Shown: one piece after another, positions 22,757 to 50,224 of the stretch
Layout: each line of letters opens with the position of its first letter
Numbering within the stretch: the stretch's first letter is position 1
Assembly (NCBI RefSeq): GCF_040958095.1
Contig: NC_091152.1
Coordinates: forward strand, 19,204,381-19,268,380
DNA length: 64,000 nt
Direction: 5' to 3'
Origin: Procambarus clarkii
Lineage: Eukaryota; Arthropoda; Malacostraca; Decapoda; Cambaridae
Translations under genes and position numbers: made by a program
Notes under the pieces: generated by a model
What the model was told of the DNA's origin: nothing
Seen by the model: only the letters and a program-made list of their open reading frames with translations
The model's database searches: none

Positions 22757-25700
22757 CTAAATATCACCAAGGATGCCAATACGAGAACAAAAACGCATAA
22801 GGCGAACGATATCAAAAGTATCCGAGTCACCAAGAATTCTATCGAGGGACAGGTGACCGCGAGGGGCGGTCGGAAAGCAAGACACACGCTCGTCCTGGAA
22901 GTCAGGACATTCAAGAAGGACATGCACGACCGTAAGAGGGACAATGCAACTAGGACAATAAGGAGCAGGGCGGCGCTCCATCAAGTGACCATGGGTTAAG
23001 CGAGTATGGCCAATACGCAACCTCGCCAGAGCTGTTTCCCACCGCCGGTTACGGTGGAAGGAGGACGGCCACGAGGAAACACAACATTTAAGAGTACGTA
23101 GCTTGTTACCAGTAACAGACAACCAAGAAGCCTGCCAACGGGTAAGGACTGAGGAATGGATAACCGGGTAAAAGTCGGAATACGGAATGCCTTTACGAGA
23201 GATGGGACAAGAGCGGACAGCTTCCTTAGCGGCAGCATCCGCACGCTCATTTAAAGACACGCCAATATGGCTGGGAACCCAACAAAACTCAACCGACTTA
23301 AATTTACTGTGAACGAGAAACAGCCAATGCTGGATCTCGACAACTACCGGATGAACTGGATTAAAGCACCCGAGAGCCATGAGGGCACTACGAGAGTCAA
23401 CAACAACCACAAAGGAAGACTGACAACGAGAAAGCAGGAGACGAAGAGCATAGAGAATAGCATAAAGTTCTGCTGTAAAGATGCTAGTCTCCGGAGGCAA
23501 GCGACACATATAAGTGCGATCAGGAAAAACAACAGAGTAGCCAACACCGTCCGCTGACTTAGACCCATCGGTGAAGACAGAAACGGAGCGGGAGTGAGAA
23601 GAAAAGTGCTCGAGGAAAAGGCGTTTTAGAACTGTAGGAGGGGTAAAAGCTTTAGTGATACGAGTCAAGGATGTACAAAACCGCGGAAGAGGGACCCTCC
23701 ACGGGGGCAAAGAAGGAACAACACGAGGAGAAACATCAGAAATACGAATGGAAAGAGAATCCTGGAGGCGAGATAACCGGACAGAAAGAGGGAGGTGGGG
23801 AAGAGGAACAGGAACCGCAGGAGGGGTAAAAGTTAAAGCACGACAGAGGCGAGAGGAAGGATGTTGCAAGGACCGCGCAAGATAGCGAAGCCAGTAGCGA
23901 TCACGGCGGTCCTGGAGAGACAGGAAGCCAGTGTCAACATACAAGCTAAGGACGGGAGTCGAACGAAAGGCACCAGAACTGAGGCGCAACCCAGTATGGT
24001 GCAAAGCATCAAGACGGCGAAGAGTAGAAGGAGAAGCAGACGAGTAAGCAGGGCAACCATAATCGAGCTTAGACAGGACGAGAGAGGAATGTAAAGCAAG
24101 GAGAGTGCGCCTATCTGCCCCCCAAGAAGTATGGGACAAGACCCGAAGGAGGGTAAGGGACTTAGAGCACTCAACACGGAGGTAAGAGATATGGGGAGAC
24201 CAAGACAAACGAGTGTCAAGGAATAACCCCAAAAGCTTCGCGGAATCTTTGTATTCAAGGGGATGACCATAAAGTGACAAAGAGGGACGAAGAACAACCC
24301 GTTTCCGCGTAAAAGTCATGGCACAAGTCTTAGAAGTAGAAAACTTGAAGCCATGACCTGTGGCCCAAGACGACACGGCATCAATCGCAAGTTGAAGCCG
24401 GCGTTGAAGGAGAGGCGAATCATCACCCTGACAACAAAGGGTAAGATCATCGACATAGAGAGCGGAGAAGACACCAGAAGGAAGAGAGGAAAGAAGACCA
24501 TTGAGGGCAACCAGAAAAAGAGTAGTGCTCAGAACACTACCCTGGGGCACACCTTCGTATTGCTGAAAAGAGGGAGACAGAGCGGTACCAAGGCGCACCC
24601 GAAAGGAACGACGAGAGAGGAAGCTGCGGAGAAAGAGAGGGAGATGACCACGAAGGCCAAAAGAATGAAGTTGAGATAGGATATGATAACGCCAAGTGGT
24701 GTCGTAAGCCTTTTCTAGGTCAAAAAGGACGGCAACAACGGAGGTCTTCGCAGCAAAAGCAGTACGAATATAGACCTCCAAGTTCACCAGGACATCTGTC
24801 GTGCTGCGGCACTTGCGGAAACCAAATTGAGAAGGGGAGAGGAGGTGATGGTGTTCCAGGAACCACATCAGACGAACGTTAACCATACGTTCAAAGAGTT
24901 TGCAGACACAACTTGTGAGAGCAATAGGGCGAAAGTCCTTAGGGGAAGTACCCAGAGACCCCGGTTTGCGAACAGGGAGGACAACGGCATCGAGCCAGTC
25001 CTCAGGGACTGACGACGACTCCCAGATCCGATTATACAGACTCAGTAAATACTGAGACGTGCTCGGAGGGAGATGGCGAAGCATCTCATAATGAATACCA
25101 TCGGAGCCCGCCGCCGTAGAACCGCAGAGGGCCAGGGCAGAACGAAGTTCAGAGAGAGAGAAGGGATCATTATAGGGAAGCTGAAGATGAGTGCAGAAAT
25201 CTAAAGGACGAGACTCAAGGACAGGTTTACGAAGAAGGAAAGATTGGGGAAGATGAAGACCAGAGCTAACAGAAGAAAAGTGGGAACCCAGTTCGGAAGC
25301 GACCTGCAACGGGTCCGCCACAAGAGTATCATGGAGGTGAAGGACCGGTGAAACATCGGGAACGAACTTACCCGCTATCTTGCGGATACGCTTCCAGATC
25401 TGGGCCAGAGGGGTTTCGGACGTAATTGTCGAGACATAAGATGCCCAACATTCACGTTTAGCCGTACGGATGGCCCTACGGGCCACCGCACTCGCTTTCC
25501 GAAAGAAAAGAAAAGAATCGGTCGTCTGCCTATGGCGGTGCTTCTTCCAGGCTGCACGCTTACAGCGGACAGCCCGAGCACAGTCCGCATTCCACCAGGG
25601 AACGCACTTCCGTGGACCCCGAGAGGAAGAGCGAGGAATAGAGCGGAGGGCAGCGTCGAAGACAGTGTCATGAAAAAGGAGGAGAGCGCGAGAGAGGGGC

Positions 25701-26516
25701 AGAAGGGAGAGGTCAGAGAGAGTAGCACTGAGGGAAAATAGGGTCAAGTCCGCCTTAGCAAACTGCCACCTAGGGAAAGAGAGGGAAGGGCGAAAAGAGA
25801 AAAAGGAAACAAGGATGGGGAAATGATCACTTCCATGGAGGTCATCAAGAACCTGCCATGTGAAATCTAAGTAAAGAGAAGAAGAGCAGAGAGAAAGATC
25901 AAGACAAGAAAGGGTGCGAGTTCGAGAGTCCAAATGAGTGGGCTCACCAGAATTCAGAAGAGACAGGGAAGAAGAGAGGAGAAACGGCTCAAGGAGGCGA
26001 CCCCGGGTATTCGTCAGAACGTCACCCCAAAGAGAATGACGACAATTGAAGTCACCCAGCAGGAGCACAGGCTCCGGCAAGGAGTCTAGGAGGTGTTTCA
26101 AAACAGGAAGAGAGAGCGGGACACTCGGGGGGAGATAAATGGAACAAACTGTGTACCATTTCCCCACAAAGATACGAGCAGCAGAACAATGGAGAGGCGA
26201 AGGAAAAAGTAAAGGAACAAAGGGAACATCAGCCCGAATCAAGAGAGCAGAAGAATTAGAAGCCCCAGCAATGGCTGGGGGGGGGGGAGAGAAAGGAATA
26301 GCCACGAAAACGACCAGGACGAGCACCAAGCATCGGCTCCTGGAGACAGACACAAAGGGGCGAAAACCGCGAAACCAGAAGTTGGAGTTCGAGGAAATTG
26401 GCGTAATAACCTCGAACGTTCCATTGAAGAATGGACAACGACGAGAAGAGAAAGGACAAAAACAGAGAACAAGGAAGAAACAAAGGCGAAAGACCAACAG
26501 AGCACGTTAAAGAATA
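22757..26516 (-). CDS. LINE ORF2 polyprotein: endonuclease, reverse transcriptase, RNase H (one frameshift)
   Basis: The main frame encodes about 1,240 residues ending in TAG at 22757-22759. Counting from 26497, approximate positions are: endonuclease LLLGDFNCRHS near 150, with LSLCS and SDHFPI after it; RT motif A FDLEKAYDTTW; motif B GVPQGSVLSTTLF; catalytic YVDD near 680; RNase H FTDGSKSADG near 975, then TAELYAI, VVDSRSAL and WVPSHIGVSLNERADA; and a Cys-rich C-terminus (CPSCIVPLTVVHVLLECP). The endonuclease start (ILQWNVRG, then LQEP) is in a different frame and joins the main frame at an 11-base G run on the plus strand (26277-26287), where one extra base explains the shift. No ATG precedes ILQWNVRG in its frame, which opens after a TGA at 26517-26519. 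In the main frame the only upstream stop is ORF1's own TAA. Confidence 0.9.
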
Positions 26517-28435
26517 TCAGGGTCGGGATCAGGGTCAGCAAAGTCAGGGTTAGGGGGCATGGGTAAACTGAGCAAAGACGGAGGGAAGGAAACGGGAGAA
26601 CAGATCAGAGGTGGGCGGGCAGGGTCCGGAGGAGGAGGAGGAGGAGGAGGAGACAACGGAGAGGAGCAGTCAAGGACAGCAGCAGGAAGAGGGGGAGTAG
26701 AAAGAGAGGAGCGCACCCCAGCAAGAGCAGCAACCGAAAGGGAAGCAGGGGCCAAAGAAACCTCCATAGCAGGAACAGGGGGCGCAAGCACTGAAACGGG
26801 AGGGGAAGGAGCAACAGAGCCAGAAGGAGGAGCTGAGGAAGAAAGCGAAGCCTTCTTACCCGCCGGGGAAGAGGAAGGAGAGGAGCCAGGCTTACGCTTC
26901 TGACTTAAAGAGACCGGTGTCCCAGCAACTACGTACCGGGCAACGGATTCCAGTGTCTCAACAGGAGAAGCCGAACGAGAGCACACACGACGGCCGTTAG
27001 GAGAGCGATGGACATCCGCCCGCACCGACAGGCGGCGGGGAGAGCCGATAGATGGAGGAAGAGGATGGGAAGGAGGATCAGAGGGGGACGAGGAAGAAGA
27101 CACAGAAGACACGACAGACCGGGTAGAAGGAAGGGGAACCCCAGACAGAGGACCAGGAGGAGGATCCTTCGGGAGAGAACCCAAAGGGACAGAGGAGGGG
27201 GCAGTGGGCGCATCAGGGTCCAAGGCCTGGAAACGGTTGCGAGTCTGAGGAAGGCGGGAAGGACGAGGAGAGGAAGAGCGCAACACGCGAGCATAAGAGA
27301 TATTAGCATAAGGCGGGAGCCGGCGAACCTGGCGCCTCGCCTCAGGAAAAGATAAACGCTCCCGGTGCTTCAAGTTGAGGACGGCTGCCTCAAGCTTGTA
27401 ATGGACACACGCACGGGAGAAGGTAGGATGGGCCTCACCGCAGTTGAGGCAACGAGCCTGGGGAGAAGCGCACTCCGACTTAGAGTGACCTTCGCCACCA
27501 CACAAAGGACAGAGAGAGACAGTCCCGGAGCAGCGGAGGGCACCATGCCCAAACCTCCAGCACTTGTTGCAGAGCCGAGGAGAAGGAATGTACTCCTGGA
27601 CAGAGCACCTGGCACCAGCAAGAATGACAGAGGGTGGAAGGGTCCTACCATCAAAGGTAATCTTCACAACCCGGAGGGGTTGACGGCGACTACCACGAGG
27701 GGGACGAGTAAACGTGTCCACCTGGAGAATAGAATGGCCCTGGGCAACGAGGATATGTCGAATATCGTCGTGGCAGTCGCGTAGGTCCCGAACACCGGTC
27801 GCAACATGGGGCGGGAGCAAAATAGTGCCAACACTGGCATTCAACTGAACGTTCTTCGAGACCCGAACGGGGGTCTCGCCAAGGCAGGATAAGGCAGCCA
27901 AGCGGGAAGCAGCATCCTGAGAAGGAGCAGCAACGACACGTGTACCGAGACGAGTGGGGTTGAAAGTAATGGAGGCATCCACGGAATCAATGAGATGTCG
28001 ATGGAGGGAGAAATCGTCAGGAGGCGCAGAATCAAGAGGGAGGAGATCAAAATATTTGGCCCACGAAGCGGGACCAAACAAGGCTTGATAGGTAGCAGAA
28101 CTGGAAGGAATCGAGCGAGGGCGGCCGTGACGAAGACGGCGGTGAGAACCCCCAGAGAGAGAGGGGTTAAAAGGCGCAGTAGTTACAACTAGAGAAGGAG
28201 CCACGCCAGGGGACGAGGTAGTCACCACTGGGGGCTTGGGGCTCGACCCAACCACAGAGGAGGGAGGGGAGCCAGAGGAAGGAGTCAGAGAGGCCAAAGG
28301 AGGAGCAAGGTCGGGGCCCAATGCAGCGGAGGCTACAGAGCCCGGTCTTCCAATACGGACCGACTCGGGGGCTTGGTCGCCCACCCCACGAGCCTGAGAA
28401 GGTAAACCAGAAGAAGCCGAAGCAGGGGTAATCAT
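26507..28435 (-). CDS. LINE ORF1, gag-like RNA-binding protein
   Basis: 642 residues from ATG at 28433-28435 to TAA at 26507-26509. The N-terminal third is Ser/Pro-rich low complexity. From about residue 287 there are three closely spaced zinc knuckles: CNKCWRFGHGALRC, CPLCGGEGHSKSEC and CLNCGEAHPTFSRAC. They are followed by a basic segment (RERLSFPEARRQVRR) and a long Ser/Pro-rich tail ending in DPDPDIL. This layout is typical of ORF1 proteins of I- and Jockey-like LINEs, which bind element RNA. The stop is in frame with the main ORF2 frame four codons upstream of TTGGTC, so the two are separated by one TAA in that frame. Confidence 0.9.
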   Translation of the reverse strand: MITPASASSGLPSQARGVGDQAPESVRIGRPGSVASAALGPDLAPPLASLTPSSGSPPSSVVGSSPKPPVVTTSSPGVAPSLVVTTAPFNPSLSGGSHRRLRHGRPRSIPSSSATYQALFGPASWAKYFDLLPLDSAPPDDFSLHRHLIDSVDASITFNPTRLGTRVVAAPSQDAASRLAALSCLGETPVRVSKNVQLNASVGTILLPPHVATGVRDLRDCHDDIRHILVAQGHSILQVDTFTRPPRGSRRQPLRVVKITFDGRTLPPSVILAGARCSVQEYIPSPRLCNKCWRFGHGALRCSGTVSLCPLCGGEGHSKSECASPQARCLNCGEAHPTFSRACVHYKLEAAVLNLKHRERLSFPEARRQVRRLPPYANISYARVLRSSSPRPSRLPQTRNRFQALDPDAPTAPSSVPLGSLPKDPPPGPLSGVPLPSTRSVVSSVSSSSSPSDPPSHPLPPSIGSPRRLSVRADVHRSPNGRRVCSRSASPVETLESVARYVVAGTPVSLSQKRKPGSSPSSSPAGKKASLSSSAPPSGSVAPSPPVSVLAPPVPAMEVSLAPASLSVAALAGVRSSLSTPPLPAAVLDCSSPLSPPPPPPPPDPARPPLICSPVSFPPSLLSLPMPPNPDFADPDPDPDIL

Positions 28436-28970
28436 CTTGACGAAAGAAATAATTCACTCACGAATGTGCCCCCACACCCACCATGGAGCCACAATTAGAG
28501 GCAGGACACCCAACAAGAAGCTATCGCCGATCTTGTCGGGGCCTCCTAGGGGTGCGTCGCGAGTATACGCCCCACAAACGCCACCTTAAGAAACCGACAG
28601 TCCGTCGAGATCGGGTTCAGTGACGAAGTGGGGATTGACAATAAAAGGTTCCCCTCGCTCTCGACGTCGGGTACTGCAGTTCTACGGGTGCATGAGTATG
28701 CCTCCTCAAGCACCCGGGCGTCAAAATAGAAGAAGTCCAAGGGAAGAACCAGAACGAGCAAAAGGTCGGCAGGAAACGGCAAGCAGATAGGAGAAGAGGG
28801 GGGAGAAAAACGAAACAGAAGGAAAAGGAAAAGATGCCCAGCAGAATTGGAGAGGACGGCAGCAGGAGCACAAGGCTAGAAAAGGACAGAGGACTGTCCC
28901 AAGGAGCATCACACTCCGGCAGCCGCCCACTAAGCCCCCACACGGCGACAACGAGCTGAGCGGGGAGGGG
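28436..28970 (-). promoter_or_regulatory. LINE 5' UTR, presumed internal promoter
   Basis: About 535 bp between the element's 5' boundary and the ORF1 ATG. LINEs of this type carry an internal promoter here; that is family knowledge and no specific motif was identified. It points away from the lipase gene that starts about 520 bp to the right. Confidence 0.5.
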
Positions 28971-45700: not shown

Positions 45701-48694
45701 GTAATACTAAGAATAGAAAAAGGGTATCTAGAAGAAATCTATCTTGTCATCAAGAATGGTTAAAAAAAAAAAAAGGGCTAAGAAAAGCTTAAGCAATAAT
45801 GAAGTGTGTACTGGCAAGAAGGCAAAAAACAAACCATCAACGGGTTCTTCCAATTACACAAAGACTAGAAACAAGACGGGGCCATTGAAAAATGAGTTAG
45901 GTCCAACAACAGATGACAAATTAATTGCATTCTAATAAGGACAATCTGTATTTATTAAACAATTTTAAATTTTACCAACACCTGAGCAAATTAATGTAGG
46001 TAATGAAGGCTAGTTGAATTGCAGAGTTATTTAGTTGTTACCCGGGAGGAAATTATTAAACAGAAAAATTAGATCCAAACATGTCACCAGGATGAGAGGA
46101 AGCCTTTGGCGGGGTCCTAGAAGAACCTAAGGATGAGCCAAGTGAGCACGTTACATCTATATTTAATATTGTAAAGCATTACAGACGAGCAGTGCTGGAA
46201 ACGAGCAGAGTTGCAAATATTATGCCAATTTTTAAGAAGGGAAATAGATCACTTGTGCCAAGTTATTGGACAATTATCTTAACTCGTTGGAAAATTGTTT
46301 CTATTAATAATTGCAAAACCCATCTTGAAAAACAAAGATTAATGAATTCACAACATGGCTTTACAATTAGCTACTCATGTTTAACATATTTGTTTTCAAT
46401 CCTTTCCAACACTTTTGTGCCAGTTGACAGCAAAAAGAACCGACACTTTGTGAACTTTAACTTTAGCACAGCTTTTGATACTGTGCCTCACAAAACATTG
46501 ATTAGAAAGGTAGAGGCTCATAAAATTGGAGGAACTATTTTATATTGGATAAAGACAGTTATTACAATGGAAAGTTATTGAAGTATTAGGATGACCAAAC
46601 TACACATTAATTAGAAAGCGAAGAAACTATCTTGAGGTTATCTTGAGATGATTTCGGGGCTTTAGTGTCCCCGCGGCCCGGTCCTCGACCAGGCCTCCAC
46701 CCCCAGGAAGCAGCCCGTGACAGCTGACTAACTCCCAGGTACCTATTTTACTGCTAGGAAAATGTTCTACTTTAACTTCTTACCTGTTCTTGCCCTAGAA
46801 GACACTTGCAGAGGACAAAGTCGGTGTGTGGCAGGTTGGTAAGAGCCTTCATGAGGATGGTGCATGCTACAGTGTTCTGGTACTTGCCAGGGTTGAACTG
46901 GTATAACTTCAGGAGTGCAAGATTTGCCTCCAGGTCGTAAGTGTTCTCGCGGGCCTGGAGCTCCACGTACCTCTCCAGAGTAGAGATGTTCTCCGGATTA
47001 TACCTGCAAAGAAAATGGTTGTACTGCACACACACACAAATCACAATAGCTTGATGCATCAAATGAACACATCCACAAGGGCCGCGACGAGGGTTTGAAC
47101 CTACATCCGAGAGGATCCCAGACGCTGCCTTAATCGACCGAGCTACGACACGGTTAAAAGAATTGCAACCGGGAAAACATCCTGACCTACCATGGATTCT
47201 GCAGCCTCTCCAAGACACAAACCAGGGTTTTACACAATTCTCCCGTGCCCCCGAGGTATGTCAATAGGCCGTTCTACCTCTTCGCCCTTCATTACACACG
47301 CTACAAGAGTGTGGAGGTCAGCACCCAAAAGTTCGAACCTACGTGTACTCACCTAGCACAACTAGGTGAGTACACATAGGTTCGAACTCTTGTCTTGGCC
47401 CTCGTGGATTTGTTCATTTGTTAAACGGCATTTCATCATCCGGCAACATTACTCACAACCTCTCCGGTATAACAATACATCACAACCAGTTGTGTACGAA
47501 GTGCCAAGGGGCCTGAACCCTAAAGTGAAGTGGGTGGTGGACGGTCACACTCCAAGGTGACTTAAAATGCACGCGGCACGTTTATCTCGGCTCCAGCAGC
47601 AAATAGACCTACACCAGCCACCTTGCCCTCAAAGTGACGAATACACCACAACGCAGCGTGACTGTGTACCTGCGGCACAGCTCGTACATACAGAGGCTGC
47701 GGCACAAGTCTTCTATCACCGGGACAACAAGCCACAGTATATGTAGAGTATAATATAAGAGTATAGTACAGTGTATAACTCCAACAGTATGTTTGTAACT
47801 CTGCATCAACGTATGTACTTTTCCTGAATAAAATAATATCATTTGTTGTTATTTATAATAATAATAAATAAAATAATAATAATAATATTATTATATAGTC
47901 ACAAGAGTATGGAGGTCAGCACCCAAGACAACAATGTCATTGAGAAACAATGGGCAGAGTTTCTTTCACCCTATGCCCCCTGTTACCTAGCAGTAAAATA
48001 GGTACCTGGGTGTTAGTCAGCTGTCACGGGCTGCTTCCTGGGGGTGGAGGCCTGGTCGAGGACCGGGCCGCGGGAACACTAAAGCCCCGAAATCATCTCA
48101 AGATAACCTCAAGATAACAAGTCGTGATGGTTCACACACACCCCCCCCAAGGTTATCTTGAGATGATTTCGGGGCTTTAGTGTCCCCGCGGCCCGGTCCT
48201 CGACCAGGCCTCCACCCCCAGGAAGCAGCCCGTGACAGCTGACTAACACCCAGGTACCTATTTTACTGCTAGGTAACAGGGGCATAGGGTGAAAGAAACT
48301 CTGCCCATTGTTTCTCCCCGGCGCCTGGGATCGAACCCAGGACCACAGGATCACAAGTCCGACCGGCTCCTACAAGGTGTAATGCCTTGGCGCTTTCCCC
48401 TCATAGTCCACCTGCATGACTAGTGCATGGAACACTGCCCAGGCGGCCCGGTCTCTCCCCTGGGGGTGGTTAGTGACACCACCTGCCACCAGGGGCGCCC
48501 CGTCCCCCTAAGGGTGGCCAGCGAGAGCACACACCAGGGGGGCGTGGCGCCCCAGGGAGCAGCCACGAGTGTGTCCCTAGCACCACAGGGGTGAGAGGAG
48601 GGTAGAGGGGCAGGGTGTAGGGGCGGCCTCACCGTTCAATCCCCCGCAGCATGGAGGCCACCGTCGCCCGCATCGCCTCCGCCTGTTCCACCAT
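42727..48694 (-). CDS. EIF3K: translation initiation factor eIF3 subunit K, five exons
   Basis: Exons on the minus strand: 48694-48633, 47003-46784, 44111-44010, 43646-43529, 42884-42727; phases agree, 660 nt, 219 aa (human 218). It starts [20 protein letters not shown]. Exon 2 carries [20 protein letters not shown] and [13 protein letters not shown], ending [16 protein letters not shown]. Exon 4 has [20 protein letters not shown]. Exon 5 has HWMTKYGW and [15 protein letters not shown]. This is the small HEAT/winged-helix subunit of the eIF3 complex that binds the 40S ribosome in the cytoplasm. Introns hold a LINE relic, SINE copies, palindromic elements and a 54-bp tandem array. The 3' end converges with the lipase gene; the 5' end is divergent from TTC8, with 1,284 bp between start codons. 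Confidence 0.96.
42908..43254. repeat. 54-bp tandem repeat, about 6 copies
   Basis: Units contain TGATAAATGAACACACTGCA, TGTCCCCTGTACTTCCATGT and CAACTATTACAATT. The first and last units share a different block (CCCTTCCCTTATGGAAGTCC), so the array has matching ends. It is in EIF3K intron 4. Because 54 is divisible by 3 it mimics a coding frame. Confidence 0.92.
44258..44650 (-). pseudogene. 5'-truncated relative of the 22.7-kb LINE (ORF2 C-terminus)
   Basis: The minus-strand translation at 44584-44309 ([38 protein letters not shown]) aligns with the last 90 residues of ORF2. The 3' end TTGATAATTACTTACTTAC matches the LINE tail. It is diverged and short and cannot be active. It lies in EIF3K intron 2. 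Confidence 0.85.
45180..45620. mobile_element. palindromic family 3 with tRNA-like arms, full copy
   Basis: Both ends carry the same tRNA-like module in opposite orientation (CCACAAGGGCCGTGACGAGG at left, CACGGCCCTTGTGGATTTG at right; GAGCTACGACATGG and CCATGTCGTAGCTC inside). Pairing continues inward (TCAACTTGACCTACCACGGA) to a centre with GAGCTCTGTTCTACG and GTAGAACAGCTC. Arms are about 200 bp. It lies in EIF3K intron 2. Confidence 0.8.
46160..46580 (+). pseudogene. CR1-like reverse transcriptase relic
   Basis: The translation at 46192-46581 shows degraded RT blocks in order: [45 protein letters not shown] and [12 protein letters not shown]. The motif A aspartate (normally DFSKAFD) is reduced to NFSTAFD, and the frame ends before motif C. 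A non-functional fragment in EIF3K intron 2. Confidence 0.8.
46629..46757 (-). mobile_element. SINE family 2, 3' half
   Basis: Body and tail only (minus strand CCTAGCAGTAAAATAGGTAC to TCAAGATAACCTCAAGAT). Its end lies about 26 bp from the exon 2 donor of EIF3K. Confidence 0.85.
47030..47425. mobile_element. palindromic family 3 with tRNA-like arms, second long copy
   Basis: The left arm (CCACAAGGGCCGCGACGAGG, GAGCTACGACACGG, CCTGACCTACCATGG) and right arm (GGTTCGAACTCTTGTCTTGG, CCCTCGTGGATTTGTTC) mirror each other as at 45180-45620. The centre GTTCTACCTCTTCG resembles that copy. It lies in EIF3K intron 1. Confidence 0.75.
47947..48116 (+). mobile_element. SINE family 2, 5'-truncated
   Basis: Starts at GAGAAACAATGGGCAGAGTT, just after the tRNA-like head, and runs to the AACCTCAAGATAAC tail. 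Confidence 0.85.
48149..48366 (-). mobile_element. SINE family 2, nearly full copy
   Basis: Minus-strand copy facing the one at 47947-48116 tail to tail across about 30 bp, making an inverted repeat in EIF3K intron 1. The B-box region GGGTTCGATCCCAGGCGCC is present, but the very start of the tRNA head is cut. Confidence 0.85.
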
Positions 48695-49739
48695 GTTGAC
48701 TGATCCTCCTAGCTTACCTACCCTACATCCACACTACGCTATACTATACTAATTTATCATCCTGGGAAGCCTCCAAAAATAACTTTGATGCGGTTTTTAG
48801 TATTTAATTCACTATTTATAATCAATTCGAATAAATTGTGTATGCTTAAAAATATTATTTATGGGTCCAAAAAGATCCTTGAAGGTAAGCTGATGACGTC
48901 ACTTACGCCACTTTATTTACATACTGAAAATAAAACAGAATTTATCTTTTATTTTTATTAGATTAAATTATGGTAGGTTAAGTGACTCTATATGGCTTGC
49001 TTACTTTACGTTAGTTTAGGAGATTTTATATTTATTACATAAACAAAAAAGTTGTCATGACGTCACAGGATATATGTTTTGGTTCTTTTTGAACCGTGCA
49101 TATTTCTAAATTATTTATACACAAGTTGCGAACACATGTATATACTGTAAGCCTTCAATGCAGTCATTTATAGATTTTCATACAAAATGTACATGTATTC
49201 TCAACGTATGTTCAATAACCCTGAAATATTAAATAATGTTAAGTAAAGCCAATTATGCCCAACTTGGAAGGCCTGTCTTAAGACAGGCATGGCTGCGAAC
49301 ATGTAGTCCTAACTTCACTTCATTATAGAACTCGTATATGTGTGTTTATTAATAATATAATTAAACATTGAACTAACTTCGCTATAGTTTCACATGTTAG
49401 AGAAATCCCGATAAATTTAACTGTTGCTAAAAGTCTTAATAAAAATATTTGTATGCTCGTTCCCCGTTAAATTAAAGCACTTATTTTAATCAAATGTTAA
49501 CGTTTTATTGATATATATTTATATTTTGATAACTATAAAAAACATATAGAGTCCATACACAAACTACAACTAACTGTCAGAGTCTATAAGTTTGTAAACA
49601 CAAGGTATATATATATATCCGCATATTACAATTATCCCCTAAAAAATATGTTTTTAGTTACATATGAAAATCAATAAACATTGAGGTAAGATGTTCATCT
49701 CATAAGACGTTTTAATGTGATAAATGGAATAGTTTAGTG

Positions 49740-49753
49740 TGTGTTGTGGCGAA
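49740..49753. repeat. target-site duplication, left copy
   Basis: TGTGTTGTGGCGAA, identical to 49938-49951. Confidence 0.85.
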
Positions 49754-49937
49754 ATTGAAATTGAAATAAGTTTATTGAGGTAAAATCCACACAAAGGGAT
49801 GAGGTAGCTCTAAGCTATTCTCACCCCGTTCAGTACATCGTGTTAATACATACATAGACACACATCACAAACAATAAACATATTACCAAACATTCTGAGA
49901 GATAAACATATACATTTCCTCCTTTACACAAGTATTT
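49754..49937 (-). mobile_element. 184-bp retroposon in the TTC8 5' region
   Basis: It is flanked by perfect 14-bp duplications. On the minus strand it ends in a repeated TTTCAATTTCAAT tail, as retroposon 3' ends do. Internal sequence includes GGTAAAATCCACACAAAGGG (plus strand). It ends 41 bp before the TTC8 ATG. Confidence 0.82.
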
Positions 49938-49952
49938 TGTGTTGTGGCGAAG

Positions 49953-49966
49953 GTTGCCATGACAAC
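49953..49966 (+). promoter_or_regulatory. X-box, RFX transcription factor site of TTC8
   Basis: GTTGCCATGACAAC fits the ciliary X-box consensus RYYNYYATRRNRAC at every position. It ends 12 nt before the TTC8 start codon. RFX factors (DAF-19 in nematodes) control BBS and other cilia genes through such sites, so the location before a BBSome gene supports function. The ATG inside the site (49959) opens a 14-codon frame that overlaps the TTC8 start out of frame. Confidence 0.75.
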
Positions 49967-49978
49967 GGACCCCTCAAC

Positions 49979-50224
49979 ATGGACCCCTTGTTCATCGCTC
50001 TAAGTAACTTCAGGCGCAGGAACTTCGACAAGACCATAGCAATATGCACAGAAATACTAGCCAAAAATCCATACGATCAGGTAATTTAATGCATCGTTTT
50101 AACAAATATCAATTCAAATAGTGAATTGACCTGCCCGAAACGCTGCGCGTACTAGTGGCTTTACAAGATTGTAATTACCATATTATGTATCCTCACAATC
50201 CCAATGTACCTTCTTGTATATGCA

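Follow-up and report, generated by a model that had tools for sequence, protein, structure and literature searches.

A predicted RFX X-box at the start of crayfish TTC8, one base from a short retroposon insertion

The window, the 64-kb stretch of Procambarus clarkii DNA analyzed here (64,000 nucleotides), contains the starts of two genes arranged head to head. The coding part of exon 1 of TTC8/BBS8 occupies positions 49979..50080 on the plus strand, comprises 34 codons (MDPLFIALSNFRRRNFDK...YDQ), and is followed by a GT donor. Joining this exon by eye with two pieces located further along the window gave a product that matched BBSome TTC8/BBS8 chains with an E value of 5e-48 (phmmer), which upholds the preliminary description of the gene as TTC8. 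The exon 1 region occurred as one copy in the assembly, the window's own, and no empty allele or alternative haplotype was found there. Exon 1 of the neighboring gene, eIF3k, lies at 48632..48694 on the minus strand; its joined exons matched eIF3K chains with an E value of 2e-39, and 1284 bp separate the eIF3k ATG from the TTC8 ATG. Because eIF3k lies upstream in head-to-head orientation, the motif and the repeat described below fall within a divergent interval. The same interval contains the CRE-like sequence TGACGTCA (48894..48901), a second CRE-like palindrome (49058-49065), and, overlapping the latter, a second X-box-like site, GTTGTCATGACGTC (49051..49064, plus strand), which by reading of the sequence fits the degenerate consensus RYYNYYATRRNRAC at 13 of 14 positions and has four mismatches to the canonical palindrome. 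In eIF3k intron 1, two inverted repeat copies (GGTTATCTTGAGATGATTTCGGGGC...) were seen by eye at 48000-48330 of the window.

The putative X-box, or RFX site, at TTC8 is GTTGCCATGACAAC (49953..49966, plus strand). It matched the degenerate consensus RYYNYYATRRNRAC without mismatches, at 14 of 14 positions and on both strands, and differed at a single position from the palindrome GTTGCCATGGCAAC (GTTGCC-N-GGCAAC), which is the optimal, canonical RFX site. The motif starts 26 bp 5' of the ATG of this ciliary gene, at 49979, and is separated from it by 12 nt. The perfect consensus fit and the 12-nt spacing that had been described from a first inspection were thus reproduced, as was the retroposon edge lying one base before the motif: on the plus strand, the order is target site duplication (TSD), 184-bp insert, TSD, a single G (49952), GTTGCCATGACAAC, 12 nt, and ATG.

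The insert is certainly a retroposon insertion. The element, a short retroposon of 184 bp, occupies 49754..49937 with its sense on the minus strand and its 3' tail of ATTTCA repeats at 49754; read in element sense, it terminates in AATAAA and an ATTTCA-type tail. Its own AATAAA lies at 49771-49776 on the minus strand, and the repeat also brought an AATAAA to the plus strand (49873..49878). The left and right copies of the TSD, TGTGTTGTGGCGAA, at 49740..49753 and 49938..49951, are exact repeats, identical at 14 of 14 positions. The insert length and the 14-bp TSD agree with the preliminary description, whereas its placement of the retroposon end at 49951 holds for the TSD copy but not for the inserted DNA, which ends at 49937; its displacement of about 200 bp for the upstream DNA comes to 198 bp. 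Preservation of the motif beside the insertion needs no selection, the insertion having missed the site by one base.

The repeat belongs to a dispersed family. A first look at the 4.03-Gb genome gave 588 candidates, and the 40 that were scored, including the window copy, showed 96-100% identity and lay on many contigs. An exact repeat of at least 9 bp was present in the flanks of 18 of 29 other copies, with 11 lacking one, and in 16 of the 29 the duplication (9-14 bp) lay within about 5 nt of the 5' end of the TTC8 copy. The duplications and the copies at unrelated loci are both as expected of target-primed retroposon insertion. Compared with the majority of 30 copies (a sample that contains the TTC8 copy and is biased toward copies resembling the query), the TTC8 copy showed one substitution and three indel columns over 181 aligned sites, and because of these few differences and the identical TSDs, it is probably young. 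An exact-pattern search for the repeat in viral contigs returned 0 matches.

A consensus match of the degenerate kind, taken alone, is modest evidence for an RFX site. The 64-kb window had three matches to RYYNYYATRRNRAC, two of which are the TTC8 site on its two strands, against a shuffle mean of 2.46; within 26-200 bp upstream of a start, about 0.007 matches would be expected on both strands. The palindrome is more selective: the TTC8 site was the only one in the window with one mismatch to GTTGCCATGGCAAC, the next best having three, and a first-order model gives sites with at most one mismatch a frequency of 1.9e-7 per position, or 3.8e-5 per 200 bp. Exact copies of the 14-mer GTTGCCATGACAAC numbered 173 (88 + 85) across the 4.03-Gb genome, barely more than the 162 (69 + 93) of its reversed control, so the letters alone prove nothing and position does the work. 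Seven other genomic copies of the 14-mer were inspected by eye: two lay in near-identical retroelement-like open reading frames and one in a tandem array. That array (L002) is a diverged one of GGCAACAGTTGTC-like units and is one source of chance X-boxes. The palindrome GTTGCCATGGCAAC was found at 67 places genome-wide, compared with 19 for its reversed control; this excess was dropped as evidence, the control having two CpGs, a dinucleotide present in the window at 0.52 times its expected frequency. At one locus (G000:C63:14377326-14377385), three canonical RFX palindromes recur with a 23-bp period.

The position of the motif also bears on where TTC8 transcription could begin. The core of the X-box contains an ATG at 49959 that opens a 14-codon upstream reading frame (49959..50003, plus strand), which runs past the TTC8 ATG in a different frame. 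The context of this ATG looks fair, and ribosomes on a transcript spanning the X-box would tend to initiate at it, so the out-of-frame ATG predicts that transcription begins inside the X-box or 3' of it, or else that leaky scanning is heavy. At the TTC8 start itself, CAACATGGACCC fits the TISU element (SAASATGGCGGC; PMC9658832) at 9 of 12 positions by our own count, SAASATGG among them, and departs from it at +5 to +7; the likeness concerns sequence context. TISU is described as favoring initiation on very short leaders (PMC9658832).

Alternatively, TTC8 could be transcribed from further upstream, for example from a CRE-containing divergent promoter shared with eIF3k, in which case the X-box would be 5' untranslated or intronic sequence and the retroposon would lie in the leader or the first intron. 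The two CRE-like palindromes in the interval (at 48894 and 49058) are compatible with such a promoter, and a pyrimidine-rich stretch of the repeat, TTTCCTCCTTTACACAAG, which ends in AAG at 49932, is a possible 3' splice site. By eye, acceptor-like AGs also precede the ATG exons of BBS5, BBS9, IFT81, and B9D2, so noncoding first exons appear to be common in this genome. This arrangement is nevertheless unlikely: it would make the near-canonical palindrome a coincidence at the modeled frequency per 200 bp, its leader, if running through the X-box, would carry the upstream ATG with a frame overlapping the TTC8 start, and no pyrimidine-rich acceptor was seen by eye between the repeat and the ATG.

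Whether comparable sites accompany other ciliary genes was read from a panel of six, whose first coding exons were placed by Pfam search and whose preceding DNA was then read. CLUAP1 had GTTTCCATGGCAAC 114 bp before its ATG, 3' of a TATATAAATA stretch, and BBS5 had GTTACCATGGCAAC 1628 bp before its ATG; because an apparent 3' splice site lies directly 5' of the BBS5 ATG exon, the BBS5 X-box is probably located at a noncoding first exon. No site with one mismatch or less to the palindrome was found in the 2000 bp upstream of each of BBS9, IFT81, and B9D2 or in the 1473 bp upstream of IFT20. Near-canonical sites were present at two of six ciliary genes without TTC8, and at three of seven with it, under a 2-kb upstream limit that was chosen after the BBS5 site had been seen; the upstream DNA read amounted to 20 kb for BBS5 and only 1030 bp for CLUAP1. 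Left out of the panel were a second CLUAP1-like locus (C13, L048) and a B9 match on C82 (L066, L069), the starts of which were unplaced. Upstream of the first matched exon, the former lacked a near-canonical site, and the best site at the latter, the first exon of which was not found, had one mismatch and a 1-base spacer and lay about 9 kb 5' of the matched exon.

By the first-order model, the chance of a near-canonical site is about 4e-4 per gene for 2 kb. The model may underestimate the rate by a factor of 3.5 (67 palindromes against about 19 predicted), and even with a 3.5-fold correction, sites at two of six genes would arise by chance with a probability of a few in 100,000, an arithmetic estimate. 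In a control of 90,192 bases around the 29 other repeat copies, no site with one mismatch or less to the palindrome was found. Degenerate-consensus counts, by comparison, do not discriminate the ciliary loci from the control: about 78 kb of ciliary loci yielded 3 distinct RYYNYYATRRNRAC hits (4 before a duplicate from overlapping loci was removed), and the 90,192-base control yielded 15, of which a single tandem array accounted for 12. Mismatches to the palindrome numbered 1, 1, and 3 for the ciliary hits and 5 to 8 for the 15 control hits. eIF3k was rejected as a nonciliary control, since the TTC8 X-box falls within its upstream 2 kb.

Two more distant candidates are tied to no start, and both genes were scored as misses. 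At BBS9, GTTGCCTGGACGAC (L063:6803-6816), with two mismatches, lies 2977 bp upstream of the ATG and is followed some 40 nt further on by the forkhead-like ATGTAAACAAA; a distant first exon is possible. At IFT81, TGACGTCACGGTCACCATGACAAC (L064:1-60) combines a CRE with an adjacent degenerate X-box (14 of 14) within promoter-like sequence lying 9.8 kb 5' of the ATG.

The genome encodes RFX factors: the RFX DNA-binding domain (PF02257) gave 10 matches above the cutoff, 5 of them in one frame. RFX use at TTC8 is supported indirectly, because RFX genes are present and near-canonical sites lie at two of the six other ciliary genes. The five matches in one frame (L075; G000:C61:15833501-15836100, minus strand) belong to an uninterrupted frame of 1055 aa, of which an 839-aa stretch was read; it would encode an unusual protein with tandem RFX domains.

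The TTC8 site resembles the known targets of RFX and DAF-19, the bbs genes of Caenorhabditis elegans and the IFT and BBS genes of Drosophila, in its consensus fit, near-palindromic form, and AT spacer. It likewise lies close to a BBSome gene start, and bbs-8 is given as a DAF-19 target in two reports (PMC1794439, PMC2375033). Worm bbs-8 has a well-defined X-box (PMC2375033) and depends on daf-19, and the preferred worm range is -50 to -200 bp (PMC1794439); the TTC8 site, 26 bp before the ATG, is nearer than that. Some fly X-boxes are tabulated 5 bp upstream of the annotated ATG or at negative distances from it (PMC2375033), and human X-boxes are described as clustering near transcription starts, with a robust window of -500 to +500 (PMC5838959). 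A further report gives background on ciliary genes and the positions of X-boxes (PMC2873420). For fly BBS8, the fly study reports a 2.7-fold fall in dRfx mutants together with no X-box conserved between two Drosophila species, and it states that the presence of an X-box does not by itself predict dRFX dependence (PMC2375033). Points against a working X-box at TTC8 are the four panel genes without a site, the nondiscriminating counts of the degenerate consensus, the near-control count of the exact 14-mer, and the fly BBS8 gene without a conserved X-box. Among the papers searched, none combined X-boxes, RFX, cilia, and crustaceans.

That the 14-mer is a chance match without RFX function would accord with its 173 genomic copies beside 162 for the control, and with the inspected copies in retroelement-like frames and a tandem array, but is very improbable given its placement 26 bp before a BBSome gene start and the equally good sites at two of six other ciliary genes.

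The X-box motif and the retroposon at TTC8 are both real, and each is of a known kind. Taken together, the sequence evidence favors, with a probability of about three in four, a functional RFX site at TTC8 beside which an ordinary, young retroposon insertion was tolerated; an X-box is the likely identity of the motif. In this functional-site interpretation, the 14-mer would be bound by RFX and drive TTC8 in ciliated cells from its place at the 3' end of the 1.3-kb interval that separates the divergent eIF3k and TTC8. One copy of the young retroposon family would later have been inserted through target-primed reverse transcription on the upstream side, one base from the X-box, shifting all other upstream DNA by 198 bp and leaving the spacing from X-box to ATG untouched. 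RFX would place Pol II so that transcripts begin inside the X-box or directly 3' of it, and the resulting leader would be about 20 nt or less, with the AUG in good context (CAACATGG). The ATG inside the X-box favors a transcription start downstream of the motif. Any X-box whose AT spacer precedes a G necessarily introduces an upstream ATG when transcribed, and this offers a simple, testable reason for such X-boxes to lie at or upstream of transcription starts. A functional site would extend the RFX/X-box code of ciliary genes to a decapod, and the young insertion beside it would be a natural experiment in the amount of upstream sequence that a BBSome promoter requires.

A more specific scenario, which is speculative and distinctly unlikely, is that a divergent promoter serving both genes was split by the retroposon. 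The CRE half would have stayed with eIF3k, and TTC8 would run from a minimal promoter consisting of hardly more than the X-box, with a leader no longer than about 20 nt; the ATG in the X-box would penalize transcripts starting further upstream, and the AATAAA of the repeat on both strands would insulate the two genes. If true, the locus would offer a natural test of whether one RFX site is enough for a BBSome gene.

The repeat itself is comparable to short nonautonomous (SINE-like) retroposons or 5'-truncated non-LTR copies in its size of about 180 bp, its recurrent 5' end, its short repetitive 3' tail, its dispersal, and the 9-14-bp TSDs of 18 of the 29 other copies. It was matched to no named family, and no tRNA gene was called in the window. 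Among the matches listed from a literature search for crayfish SINEs and retroposons, there was no mention of crayfish. Because 5 of the 29 copies share a longer 5' part, the 184-bp repeat may correspond to the 3' portion of a longer element. Elsewhere in the window, two long abutting frames (22757-28453, minus strand; 648 and 1249 aa from stop to stop) appear by eye to be a non-LTR ORF1 with zinc knuckles and an ORF2 with endonuclease, reverse transcriptase, and RNase H.
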